Source: Indioceanicola profundi (GTDB lineage Bacteria; Pseudomonadota; Alphaproteobacteria; Azospirillales; Azospirillaceae). Taken from it: a stretch of DNA of 64,000 bases. The position numbers were made by a program, and so were the translations under genes. Positions 29,259 through 62,684 of the stretch are shown piece by piece. A model generated the notes under the pieces. The model was not told the origin of the DNA. It was given only the letters and a program-made list of their open reading frames with translations, and ran no database searches. Each line of letters begins with the position of its first letter. The first letter of the stretch is position 1. The DNA is taken from the NCBI RefSeq assembly GCF_003568845.1, contig NZ_CP030126.1, forward strand, positions 3,207,501 through 3,271,500, in the 5' to 3' direction.

Positions 29259-29343
29259 CCGTAGGTCGGTGCGAGGCGAAGCCGAGGGCCGACATCCCGC
29301 CCCACAGCGCGTCGGCCCTCGCTCCGCTCGCACCGACCTACGG
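29259..29343. repeat. Palindromic repeat, family 2, copy A
   Basis: Perfect 17-bp outer arms (CCGTAGGTCGGTGCGAG and its complement) plus inner arms GAGGGCCGAC/GTCGGCCCTC around a 19-base centre. The two-tier architecture recurs at 41783-41882 and in altered form at 60676-60787, all built on TAGGTCGG...CCGACCTA. It lies between the GNAT gene and the convergent DUF2283 gene and may terminate both. Confidence 0.85.
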
Positions 29344-41782: not shown

Positions 41783-41882
41783 CGTAGGTCGGATCGAGCC
41801 CATGGCGATGATCCGACGCGGTGGTGAAGACCGGTGGAAGTGTGTCGGATCATCGCCCTTCCAGGCCTCGATCCGACCTACG
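41783..41882. repeat. Palindromic repeat, family 2, copy B
   Basis: Perfect 16-bp outer arms (CGTAGGTCGGATCGAG) and perfect 14-bp inner arms (GGCGATGATCCGAC) around a 26-base centre. The layout is the same two-tier one as copy A at 29259-29343. It occupies the whole gap between the asparaginase stop and the ribosome site of the oxidoreductase gene. Confidence 0.88.
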
Positions 41883-46087: not shown

Positions 46088-47578
46088 ATGCGTATCCTGT
46101 TCGTTGCGTCGGAATGCTTCCCCTATGTGAAGACCGGCGGGCTGGCCGATGTCGCGGCAAGCCTGCCCCCGGCTTTGCGCGCGCTCGGCGCGGATGTCAG
46201 GCTGCTGCTGCCGGGCTATCCCGGCGTGCTGGACCGGCTGCGGGTGATGCGGACGGTGCGGAGCCTTCCCGCCCTGCCCGGACTGCCGGACGGCGCCCGT
46301 GCGCGTCTGCTGGGCAGCCTGGGGGAGGACGACCTCACCGTCTACGCGCTGGACGCGCCGGCCTTCTTCGCGCGCGAGGGCAATCCCTACCAGAGGCCGG
46401 ACGGGCGCGACTGGCCGGACAACCACCTGCGCTTCGCCGCCCTGTGCCGGACGGCGGCGCTGATGGGGTTGGAGGGCGACGGCGACGGTTGGGTGCCGGA
46501 CATCATCCACGGCCATGACTGGCAGGCCGGGCTGGTGCCGGCCTATCTGCGGCATGCCGGCTGGGTTTTCGACGGCAAGCCGGTTCCCGGCACCGTCTTC
46601 ACCATCCACAATCTGGCCTTCCAGGGGCTGTTTCCGCCGGACGTTCTGCGTCCGCTCGGCCTGCCATCGGATACCTTCACCCATGAGGAGCTGGAATATT
46701 ACGGCAAGGTCGGCTTCCTGAAGGCCGGGCTGGTCTATTCCGACCGCCTGACCACCGTCAGCCCGACCTACGCCCATGAAATCCAGGGGTGGGAGATGGG
46801 CTTCGGGCTGGACGGGGTGCTTCGCCGGCGTGCCAACGTCCTGTCCGGAATCCTGAACGGTATCGACCTCCGCCACTGGGACCCGGCGACCGATCCCTTC
46901 ATCACCCAGCGTTACGATTCGGGCCAGCTTGATCGGCGGGCGGCCAACAAGGCCGACCTGCAGCGCGCCTTCGGGCTGGAGGTGCGGCCTGACGCCCTGC
47001 TGTTCGGTGTGGTCAGCCGCCTGACCCACCAGAAGGGCATAGACCTGATCGTCCAGGCGCTGCCGCGCATCATGGGATTGGGCGGGCAAGTCGCCGTCCT
47101 CGGCACCGGCTCGGCGGAGCTGGAGCAGGCGCTGGCCGACGCCAGCGCGGATCACAAGGGGCGGGTGGGCCTCCGCCTCGCCTATGACGAGGGGCTGTCG
47201 CACAGGGTGCAGGCCGGGGCCGACGTGCTGATGGTTCCGTCCCGGTTCGAGCCCTGCGGGCTGACCCAGATGTACGCCCTGCGTTACGGAACCCTGCCGC
47301 TGGTCACCCCGGTCGGCGGGCTGGCCGACACGGTGGCCGACGTGACCGAGGCGGCGCTGGCCCACCGGACCGCCACCGGATTTGTCACGGACGCGGTCGA
47401 CCTGCCTGCCCTGCTCCGCGCGGTGGAGCGGGCAGCGGGACTGTACCGCCATGGCGAACTGTGGCGTCAGGTCCAGCGCACGGCGATGGGCCGCGATGTC
47501 GGTTGGGAAGCGTCCGCCCAGGCCTATCTCGGTCTCTATACATCCCTTCAGGTGGACAGCACTTCTATGTCCCAGTAA
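46088..47578 (+). CDS. glgA: Glycogen synthase (ADP-glucose)
   Basis: GT5 glycosyltransferase (496 aa) extending alpha-1,4-glucan chains from ADP-glucose. ADP-glucose-binding [16 protein letters not shown] is at the N-terminus, with [14 protein letters not shown] and the C-terminal nucleotide site [31 protein letters not shown]. The length is normal. It is second gene of glgCA; glgB and glgP are not in the window. A hybrid kinase gene begins 102 bp downstream. Confidence 0.96.
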
Positions 47579-60041: not shown

Positions 60042-60431
60042 ATGGACCGGCGCATCGCCCTGCTGACCCTGCTGGTCCGCGACTACGACGAGGCCATCGC
60101 CTTCTACACCGGCGCGCTGGGGTTCGAGCTGGCGCAGGACGCCAGCCTTGGCGGGGGCAAGCGCTGGGTGGTGGTCCGGCCACAGGGCGCCGGCACGGGG
60201 CTGCTGCTGGCCCAGGCAGCGGATGCGGAGCAGGCCGCCCGCATCGGCGACCAGACCGGCGGCCGGGTCTTCCTGTTCCTGCACACCGACGATTTCGCCC
60301 GCGACCACGCCCGCATGAGCGCCGCCGGCGTTCGCTTCCTTGAACCGCCCCGGCATGAGCCCTACGGGACCGTGGCGGTGTTCGAGGATCTGTACGGCAA
60401 CACATGGGACCTGCTGGAGCCAAAGCCGTAG
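60042..60431 (+). CDS. VOC-family (glyoxalase/bleomycin resistance-like) protein
   Basis: 129 aa, one vicinal-oxygen-chelate domain: LTLLVRDYDEAIAFYTGALGFEL at the N-terminus, RVFLFLHTDDFARDHARM in the middle, and VAVFEDLYGNTWDLLEP at the end with the metal Glu/Asp. GAGG precedes the ATG. Activity (glyoxalase, dioxygenase or binding) cannot be told. Confidence 0.88.
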   Translation: MDRRIALLTLLVRDYDEAIAFYTGALGFELAQDASLGGGKRWVVVRPQGAGTGLLLAQAADAEQAARIGDQTGGRVFLFLHTDDFARDHARMSAAGVRFLEPPRHEPYGTVAVFEDLYGNTWDLLEPKP

Positions 60432-60493
60432 CGGCGGGCGGGTGCCATTCGGCGCTGTCCGTGCGGGCTCTGGCGGCCGGTTTAGTGTCAGGC

Positions 60494-60610
60494 AAGGATG
60501 GATAGGATGAATGGGATGGCGCGCTGGACCGGCGGAGCCAGTCCTGGATCACCGACCTGCACTGGCAGGTGATGGGGGCTCCGTTATCCTATCCATCCCA
60601 TTCATCCTTT
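60494..60610. repeat. Palindromic repeat, family 3, copy E
   Basis: Long inverted repeat built from GGATGAATGGGATGG units: 60505-60519 pairs exactly with the complement at 60593-60607. Inner dyads are GGAGCC/GGCTCC and CCTGC/GCAGG. Its interior matches that of copy F (61032-61150) in reverse orientation at about 24 of 28 positions, so E and F are one family. Confidence 0.8.
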
Positions 60611-60675
60611 CCCATATCCCGAAACAAGCCTCCCCACAGGAGGGACGGCGTCCAATGGCGCGGATGAGCGATGAA

Positions 60676-60787
60676 TGTCGGCCACGCTACGCGTGACCGA
60701 CCTACGGCTCTGCGGTGTACAAGCCCAGGCGGCAGGCGCTACGGACCAATGTCCGGAGTAGGTCGGTCACGCGTAGCGTGGCCGACA
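60676..60787. repeat. Palindromic repeat, family 2-like, copy C (30-bp perfect arms)
   Basis: Perfect 30-bp arms at 60676-60705 and 60758-60787. The inner end of the left arm reads ACCGACCTAC and the right arm starts GTAGGTCGGT, i.e. the same TAGGTCGG core as copies A and B, here facing inward. The loop is 52 bases. This is the longest perfect dyad in the window. Confidence 0.88.
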
Positions 60788-60824
60788 GGGCTGTCCGCGC
60801 TTCGGCATCGAGGTCCGAGACATC

Positions 60825-60965
60825 ATGAATGATGAAAAAGATGGAAAGGATGAAGATGATGAACCGAGCGCGCCGCAGGCAGTGATGAAGACCGGGCAGG
60901 AGCTGAGGCGGAAGCCGAATAGCCCCACACCATCATTTTCATCCTCTTCATCATTTTCATCTTTC
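60825..60965. repeat. Palindromic repeat, family 3-like, copy G
   Basis: Purine-rich left arm (ATGAAAAAGATGGAAAGGAT and on) pairs with a pyrimidine-rich right arm at 60930-60965 (CATCATTTTCATCCTCTTCA and on). Pairing is good but imperfect because both arms are made of short GATGAA/GGATGA units. The same design as E and F. Confidence 0.7.
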
Positions 60966-61031
60966 TAGATGTCACCGGCCCGGCCATCAGGCGCTGCCCG
61001 CGCCGGCTCCGGCAGACAGTTTGGAATCAGC

Positions 61032-61150
61032 AAGGATGAATGGGATGAATAGGATAAGGGTAAGCATCTCTTCCGCCGGTGCGGGCTGGTGCTGAGGAAT
61101 TGGCTCCGCCGGTTCGGCGCGCCATCCCATTCATCCTATTCATCCTTTCC
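61032..61150. repeat. Palindromic repeat, family 3, copy F
   Basis: GGATGAATAGGAT at 61043-61055 pairs exactly with its complement at 61133-61145; GGATGAATGGGAT at 61034-61046 has a match at 61124-61136. The interior is homologous to copy E in reverse orientation. A short remnant (GGATC...GATCC then CCGACCTACGG at 61261-61291) follows before the NrtR-like gene stop. Confidence 0.8.
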
Positions 61151-61298
61151 AGCACCCCGAACCAAGCCCTGCACAGGAAGAACGGCGTCGAGTGGCCCGG
61201 AGGACAGGCGAAGGCTGTGCTCTGTTCCGACACGGTGGTGCGGAAGGGGCGCGGTGTGCTGGATCGGCGCTGCGCTTGATCCGACCTACGGCACCTGC

Positions 61299-62399
61299 CT
61301 AATCGCTGATCCGCATGGCCGGCAGGCCGACGCCGGCGACGGCCTTCTCCCGTAGCACGCCGCGGCGGAAGCGGTGGAGTTCGGCGGGGCGGCCGCCGGT
61401 GTTGGATTCCTGGGTGCCGGTGGCCTCCACCAGCCCGCCGCTCAGCACCAGACGGCGGAAATTCTGCTTGTGCAGGCGGACGCCGGACAGCGCCTCCACC
61501 GTTCTTTGCAGGCGGAACAGGGTGAACTCGGCGGGCAACAGGTCGAACACCACCGGCCGGTATTTCAGCTTGCCGCGCAGCCGTCCCAGCGCCACGGCCA
61601 GGATGCGGCGGTTGTCCAGCGCCATGGGCGTGCCCAGCAGGCGGGCCACCTCCGGCTGGTCGGTCCAGGCCTCCTCCGCCCACTGGTCGTCCAGCTTGCC
61701 GGCGGGGGCAGGGCTGCGGTCCAGCAGGCCGTGGCGGGCGCGGATGGCGCGGTCGCGCCGGGCCTCCTCCACCAGCCCCGCCCCGTACAGAAGCTCGTAG
61801 CGCTCCAGCACCCGCTCCTCGTCCCACTGCTCATCGGGGGCGAAGGTGACGGAGATTCGGTCCTGGCGCTGGGCCTTCAGCGCCGGATCGCCGGTCAGAC
61901 CGGCCCAGCGTTCCAGCGCCGGGCGGATCACCTCGCCCACCAGCGCCGGCCTGCCGTCGCGCCAATCCTCCCAAGGGAAATAATCGTACCAGTCGTGCCA
62001 TTCGGCAGCGCCCGACCCGCTCAGCGGCGCTTCCCTCACCAGGGCGACATAGCCGGTGGAGACGACGCGGGGGCCGCCCTCCAGCTCGCGCGGGTCGCGG
62101 TAGCGGTCGCCGAAGGTATAGAGCTGCTCCACATAGCGCAGCGGCAGGCCGGTCTGCTCATGCACCCAACGGCGCAGCCCCTGTTCCAGCGTTCGGTCGC
62201 GCTCCGCCGCGAAGGGACCGAAGGGCAGGGCGTCCAGGCTGTCGGCGGGAATGCGGGAGGGTTCGGCCCGCTGTTCCGGGGTAGCCAGGTCGTGGGTCAT
62301 GCGGCGCACGACCAGCACGCGCGGCACCTCCTCCGTCACCGCGACGATCGCGGCCGTCAGGCCCAGCACCATGGCGCTGGACGGGGGCGGGGCGGCCAT
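61299..62399 (-). CDS. NrtR-like NUDIX-domain/winged-helix regulator
   Basis: 366 aa. The N-terminal half is NUDIX-like (VLGLTAAIVAVTEEVPRVLVVRR..., FGPFAAERDRTLEQGLRRWVHEQTGLPLRYVEQLYTFGDRYRDP) with a degenerate Nudix box, as in NrtR-type proteins that have lost hydrolysis. The C-terminal half is the NrtR winged-helix (LRGKLKYRPVVFDLLPAEFTLFRLQRTVEALSGVRLHKQNFRRLVLSGGLVEATG). NrtR proteins sense NAD-derived ADP-ribose. It is divergent from the NAD-dependent glutamate dehydrogenase gene. The start at 62399 is uncertain because of a weak ribosome site. Confidence 0.8.
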   Translation of the reverse strand: MAAPPPSSAMVLGLTAAIVAVTEEVPRVLVVRRMTHDLATPEQRAEPSRIPADSLDALPFGPFAAERDRTLEQGLRRWVHEQTGLPLRYVEQLYTFGDRYRDPRELEGGPRVVSTGYVALVREAPLSGSGAAEWHDWYDYFPWEDWRDGRPALVGEVIRPALERWAGLTGDPALKAQRQDRISVTFAPDEQWDEERVLERYELLYGAGLVEEARRDRAIRARHGLLDRSPAPAGKLDDQWAEEAWTDQPEVARLLGTPMALDNRRILAVALGRLRGKLKYRPVVFDLLPAEFTLFRLQRTVEALSGVRLHKQNFRRLVLSGGLVEATGTQESNTGGRPAELHRFRRGVLREKAVAGVGLPAMRISD

Positions 62400-62684
62400 T
62401 CCGCCGCCCGCCGGTGCCCCTCCCGGAATGCCCGAGTCCGCCGCGCCCAAGCGCACCCTCCCCCTCTGCGAATACCCGGTCTTCGCCGGGCGACAGGAAC
62501 ATGCCGTCCCATCGGCTTTTAAGGCAATGGACTGGCGGACGCAAACCCGCCAACGCACAAGCATTGCGCGGGCATGACAAGGTCAGGCCGCGTTTGCTCC
62601 CAGCCTCGATTCCTGCGACAAAACGGGCCAGCATGATGGTCCGGCGTCCAATGATCGGGCCCAGCATTTCGGGAGAGAATCGCC

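Follow-up and report, generated by a model that had tools for sequence, protein, structure and literature searches.

The window analysed here, 64,000 nucleotides of Indioceanicola profundi DNA, corresponds to C1:3207501-3271500 in a host genome of 5.37 Mb distributed over 4 contigs. Near its right end a stretch free of genes separates two convergent genes, a glyoxalase-family gene on the + strand (60042-60431) and a Nudix/NrtR-like gene on the - strand (61299-62564), the stop codons of which both face the stretch. An earlier note had described this interval as five stacked long palindromes. Four of them, E, C, G and F, lie where it had placed them and fold, with DNA parameters, better than shuffled sequence (z-scores of -4.54, -10.73, -3.99 and -4.50, respectively, none of 200 shuffles equalling the native sequence for any of the four), while two flanking controls of 121 nt gave non-significant values of -1.69 and -0.17. 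The fifth piece, the "remnant", of which a 35-nt part folded no better than its shuffles (z = -0.03), proved to be one GTAG-type REP unit, which recurs in the genome, for example at C1:558498 with 100% identity over 33 nt. The arms of C are indeed perfect, being 100% complementary over 30 nt and 52 nt apart, and E and F share their interior in inverse orientation as had been described, with a match of 119 nt at 78% identity. In place of the two palindrome families distinguished before, three kinds are present, namely REPs (C and the remnant), G, and E/F. The modules are listed in Table 1.

Table 1. Modules of the intergenic stretch, in window coordinates.
Feature	Position	Strand	Description
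Composite repeat	60432-61298	.	Occupies the gap between convergent genes; module order repeated at other C1 sites
U linker, left of hairpin E	60444-60491	.	A second copy, equally oriented, lies left of F (60981-61029)
Hairpin E	60492-60612	.	Arms of GGATGRATR iterons with period 9 (60500-60519/60593-60612, for example); "e" orientation of the loop
D linker, right of hairpin E	60613-60675	.	From locus dissection and unit alignment
C	60676-60787	.	Two inverse GTAG REPs, GTAG ends inward; arms 60676-60705 and 60758-60787
Hairpin G	60819-60973	.	Ends GACATC/GATGTC; period-9 arms (GATGRAARR); a hairpin of this type also follows the GxxExxY gene (C1:3187.9 kb)
U linker, left of hairpin F	60981-61029	.	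From locus dissection and unit alignment
Hairpin F	61030-61152	.	Hairpin E with the inter-arm segment inverted
D linker, right of hairpin F	61153-61215	.	Closing REP, present in 16 of 20 units, absent here
Single GTAG REP of another variant (the earlier "remnant")	61262-61298	-	From genome matches and site scan

When the 867-bp stretch was used as a query, 123 matches were obtained in the genome, five of them long (the query itself included), several of 240-470 bp and many short. Dissection and alignment of sixteen C1 loci recovered 20 whole or partial units at fifteen of them, the sixteenth (L021) being a lone G hairpin. The consensus order of a unit is GTAG-REP, G hairpin, linker U, E/F hairpin, linker D and inverted REP, with roughly 400 bp, including the two iteron hairpins, lying between the REPs of one unit. 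The window holds one and a half such units: E, D and the REP pair C, followed by G, U, F and D. As read by eye from the alignment of the 20 units, the left REP is present in 10, the right REP in 16 and both in only 6; one unit is without G, another has half of it, and copy number and module order differ from site to site. Because the pieces follow one another in the same order at other sites, the block was evidently copied already assembled, and the stretch is one composite repeat rather than the product of five separate insertions; the insertion hot spot that had been proposed for it is thus not supported. A crude ORF-based inspection revealed no long ORF spanning the site at any of the 16 loci. 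No composite was found in 38 other genomes (22 from its own family, 16 from its class) in a search that scored at most 13 candidates per genome; one of them gave a single weak match of 46 bases at 83% identity.

GTAG REPs are short palindromes with an unpaired GTAG end (PMC3733652), and C consists of two of them placed tail to tail, with arms that end in GTAG. The window contains 8 GTAGGTCG sites against 0.73 expected, three of which fall within the studied stretch. Inverted, REP-like pairs of GTAGGTCG also occur elsewhere in the window, at 29261-29341 and 41784-41881, together with a single site at 46764-46771. These REPs are dispersed, with many short genome matches to query positions 245-275, 327-357 and 830-860, located on C1 and at one place on C2. 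At five loci (L006-L010) the unit has immediately to its left a dimer of a second GTAG REP family, with the body AAGGAGCGCAGCGGATT, and parts of this dimer were also seen at L002 and L012. The only PF01797 match detected in the genome is a RAYT gene by NF047646 (194.9 bits), which lies at positions 1339-1860 of L031 (C1, about 2.600 Mb) and has inverted GTAG REPs on its two sides, which differ in body and variant from those of the block and the window; with this one PF01797 match in the genome, no RAYT gene flanked by the block's own REP was found. The idea of mobile or copied hairpin elements, also put forward in the earlier note together with a genome-wide search and a look for a RAYT gene, is supported, unlike the hot spot: the repeat families are dispersed in the genome and not confined to the stretch, and a RAYT gene with flanking GTAG REPs is present, but its REP is another variant.

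A rival account of such an arrangement would be an ordinary REPIN/BIME mosaic, in which the block is moved by the GTAG REPs and their RAYT, with the G and E/F hairpins carried along as plain passengers. The composite resembles GTAG REPs, REPINs and BIMEs in that the GTAG tag is found in C as well as in the remnant, many units are REP-ended (at the right end in 16 of 20, at the left end in 10 of 20), the sites are intergenic and the genome encodes a RAYT; moreover, mosaic intergenic regions that combine REPs with other repeats are described for Neisseria in the accessible text of PMC3733652. The composite differs from them in having two iteron hairpins, about 400 bp, between its REPs, and in that the RAYT's own REP is not that of the block. 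A G-type hairpin also stands without the REP and E/F block both at L021 and beside a GxxExxY gene (see below), and the mosaic account leaves unexplained why the same type of arm surrounds GxxExxY genes in other phyla. We regard it as possible but doubtful.

The alignment of the 20 units also clarified the relationship between E and F. Linkers U and D keep a constant orientation throughout, whereas the inter-arm segment faces one way in 10 units and the opposite way in the other 10; E and F are thus one hairpin in which this segment has been inverted in place. Several differences in arm length among the copies are 9-bp steps. On a tree of the flanks of 18 of the 20 units, from which L001_0e (without G) and L017_0e (with partial G) were left out, the loop orientation requires 4 changes (bootstrap 3-4), which suggests repeated inversion; since a single origin was not rejected (p-AU 0.074), recurrence was dropped as a claim.

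The arms of the hairpins are built of iterons. Those of E/F fit GGATGRATR every 9 bp, with 37 genome matches at up to 2 mismatches and none for the reversed control, and those of G fit GATGRAARR, for which 3 mismatches were allowed and 48 matches obtained, E/F arms being among them, with again none for the control. All matches of both patterns are on C1. In public genomes the E/F pattern was found in 75 stretches of 44 genomes (hand count), many of them hairpins of Verrucomicrobiota and others plain arrays, coding sequence or chance-like occurrences. In one Verrucomicrobiia MAG, the arms around a GxxExxY gene (PF13366, E = 7.6e-32; TIGR04256, E = 3.8e-34) consist of exact E/F-type iterons, and the same MAG carries at least five gene-less hairpins with E/F-type arms within 3 mismatches (L037, L044, L074, L076 and L099). 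The hairpins of the window have the inverted period-9 iteron arms of the GxxExxY iteron element that we propose on this basis, and hold no gene between them.

GxxExxY proteins (PF13366) are predicted PD-(D/E)XK nucleases. PF13366 was searched in 30 of the 44 genomes with the E/F pattern, 21 of which gave clear matches and one weak matches only, against a background of 12 among 142 Alphaproteobacteria, the I. profundi genome included. To score bracketing, the 260 nt upstream of each gene were compared with the reverse complement of the 260 nt downstream (both stretches taking in 40 nt of the gene itself). Controls were obtained by shifting the placement within the locus, and the threshold was the 99th percentile of the first control set. 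In the first set, 36 of 47 GxxExxY genes exceeded it (10 of 18 from the Alphaproteobacteria search and 26 of 29 from the motif genomes) as compared with 3 of 268 control values; in the second, 15 of 18 did so against 4 of 102 controls, three of these coming from one array-rich locus. Overall, inverted iteron arrays, mostly of period 8-10, bracket 51 of the 65 GxxExxY loci, the other 14 falling below the threshold. Self-matching of the arms peaks at lag 9 (0.412), the other lags up to 17 ranging from 0.256 to 0.346 and lag 18 giving 0.340. Considered locus by locus, the best lag up to 12 among the 51 bracketed loci is 9 in 26 and other than 9 in 25, including 8 in nine loci and 10 in eight. At L264/L270 (G188, contig C71), a GxxExxY gene is accompanied on both sides by repeated copies of the same iteron array, 96-98 bp apart.

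Protein and arm similarity between genomes are correlated (r = 0.335, permutation p = 0.0005, 1046 pairs), a relationship that may stem in part from kinship and base composition. The calculation used the 47 arm sets available from the 51 bracketed loci; 63 of the 65 loci were translated, giving 62 proteins, and L119 and L129, which had been read in a wrong frame, were left out. A related arm pattern was sought in four genomes with GxxExxY genes and found 12 times in three of them and not in the fourth; in the I. profundi genome it gave no match. Seven of the 12 matches lie beside a GxxExxY gene, and among the five elsewhere a partner arm was clear in one (score 40) and weak in another (score 23). 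Three single-protein scans detected no GxxExxY relatives in viral contigs, the scan of plasmids gave eight plasmid records, and PADLOC and PHROGs returned no match for the two GxxExxY proteins submitted. The single-sequence AlphaFold model of the L044 GxxExxY protein was rejected for its low confidence (pLDDT 33.6). A single-protein search of solved structures returned no nuclease; a profile search of them gave 3 matches, two of which bear the names Endonuclease I and Endodeoxyribonuclease I (the junction-cutting enzyme of phage T7) but, with E-values of 1 and 2.1, were set aside as too weak. A literature search, to which subscription papers and supplementary files were external, found no tie between GxxExxY genes and flanking iterons; the two papers found to name GxxExxY give, in their accessible text, no function for it and have other subjects than repeats.

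The only PF13366 gene detected in I. profundi is located at C1:3187483-3187872 and encodes a protein of 129 aa (E = 3.2e-37), which in the alignment carries the conserved G, E and Y (GxG..E..Y), D and ExK, the predicted nuclease residues. A G-type hairpin starts 28 nt past its stop codon, with 53-nt arms that are 96% complementary and match the G-arm pattern exactly. The gene is not enclosed, its bracketing score of 18 being at the level of the controls and the hairpin being present on one side only, and the I. profundi genome yielded no gene cognate to the E/F arms. The copies cluster on C1: the 17 sites entered into the statistic have a median distance of 177 kb to the GxxExxY gene, for which P = 5e-6 under a uniform distribution along C1, and one of them (2.42 Mb) is known solely by a pattern match with 2 mismatches.

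The arc of C1 that holds these sites also surrounds a cluster of parS-like sites, three of which occur at 3.049-3.057 Mb and a fourth at 3.141 Mb; the median distance of the 17 sites from the cluster (3.05 Mb) is 215 kb, and GC skew changes sign nearby, in a profile that is noisy (20 samples, one of them amounting to half its bases); an apparent fall in GC in one sampled stretch was due to missing bases and was discounted. Some 135 kb separate the GxxExxY gene from the parS-like cluster, so that spreading outward from the gene and an enrichment around the origin are indistinguishable on these data. The stretch might accordingly be read as a chromosome-organising or origin-proximal site, where a nucleoid or replication protein would bind the iteron hairpins and keep the copies near the origin, as the arc and the skew would allow. 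The arc, however, contains the GxxExxY gene as well, copy number and order vary among the sites, and the lack of the composite in the 38 other genomes speaks against a conserved role, which makes this reading very improbable.

Iteron-flanked genes are not restricted to the GxxExxY family. In the same genomes, 17 of 30 genes for 23S-IVP proteins (PF05635) are bracketed by inverted heptamer arrays (L233-L262), as against 2 of 149 controls. The self-match of their arms is 0.667, 0.605 and 0.533 at lags 7, 14 and 21, respectively, and lies at about 0.23-0.35 for the remaining lags; 15 of the 17 bracketed loci have 7 as their best lag, and the arm periods of the two families differ (p = 1e-8). The I. 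profundi genome gave no match to PF05635 in a search in which the control genomes were silent too, the family having been recovered in a separate search. In Coxiella, according to the accessible text of PMC4990558, the 23S rRNA intervening sequence (IVS) is a hairpin element that has a stem of 28 bp, carries an S23p gene preceded by heptamer repeats and is excised by RNase III. The elements compared here share with the 23S rRNA IVS (S23p/four-helix-bundle, PF05635) a hairpin, a small gene in the loop and short arm iterons, which in Coxiella are heptamers. The hairpins of the window, in contrast, are outside rRNA, between two protein genes, have period 9 and are gene-less, so that neither an S23p/PF05635 gene nor period-7 arms accompany them. 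Multicopy palindromic and direct-repeat families have been described from Geobacter genomes (PMC2996986, PMC2700814), and these, like the heptamers of Beggiatoaceae (PMC4679880), are dispersed, intergenic and of short period, with function unproven. Unlike the elements studied here, they come with no link to GxxExxY or IVP genes in the accessible text of these papers, and are set beside them by description only.

The parallel with the IVS raises the possibility that the hairpins act as RNA, at the 3' ends of convergent transcripts, where they would be cut by RNase III and protect or terminate messages, their copying being a side effect. The position between convergent genes and the RNase III excision of the Coxiella hairpin with its S23p gene (PMC4990558, as accessible) are compatible with this, and the four palindromes would presumably fold as RNA too, to judge from folding with DNA parameters. 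On the other hand, none of 4227 Rfam families matched the window at gathering score, and no intrinsic-terminator-like site lies inside E, C, G or F, two overlapping ones being located in a D linker against 0.5 expected. We consider an RNA role unlikely. At an E-value of 1, Rfam gave five matches to families of microRNA and snoRNA type, which were rejected as far under gathering score.

Taken together, the stretch is best explained as a mosaic of GTAG REPs and gene-less iteron hairpins of the GxxExxY class (G and E/F) that has been copied as a block, with a nuclease as the proposed agent; we give this reading as a whole about an even chance (roughly 0.5). The nuclease-driven copying is inferred because GxxExxY genes are tied to iterons and their products have a predicted nuclease fold. 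According to this model, which is drawn from sequence comparisons, the GxxExxY protein would recognise the iterons of its own family and would cut or nick the hairpin when this is extruded or single-stranded, after which repair or replication could copy the hairpin, with the DNA joined to it, into other intergenic places. In addition, a RAYT acting on the REPs attached to the hairpins may help the block to move.

In broader terms, it is conceivable, at somewhat less than even odds, that a system of iteron hairpins spanning the genome belongs to each of two small protein families, with period 9 for GxxExxY and period 7 for S23p/IVP, and that much of the unexplained short-period intergenic repeat DNA of bacteria represents their gene-less offspring, copied through hairpin cutting and repair. 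Hairpins and short-period repeats between genes are common among bacteria and for the most part lack an explanation, and the tie between protein family and iteron period would offer a testable partner for both the proteins and the repeats. If this is true, the window shows hairpin offspring that have been fused with REPs, the larger unit so formed being copied in its turn, and the intervening sequences of 23S rRNA, long held to be oddities, would join a larger class of hairpin elements.
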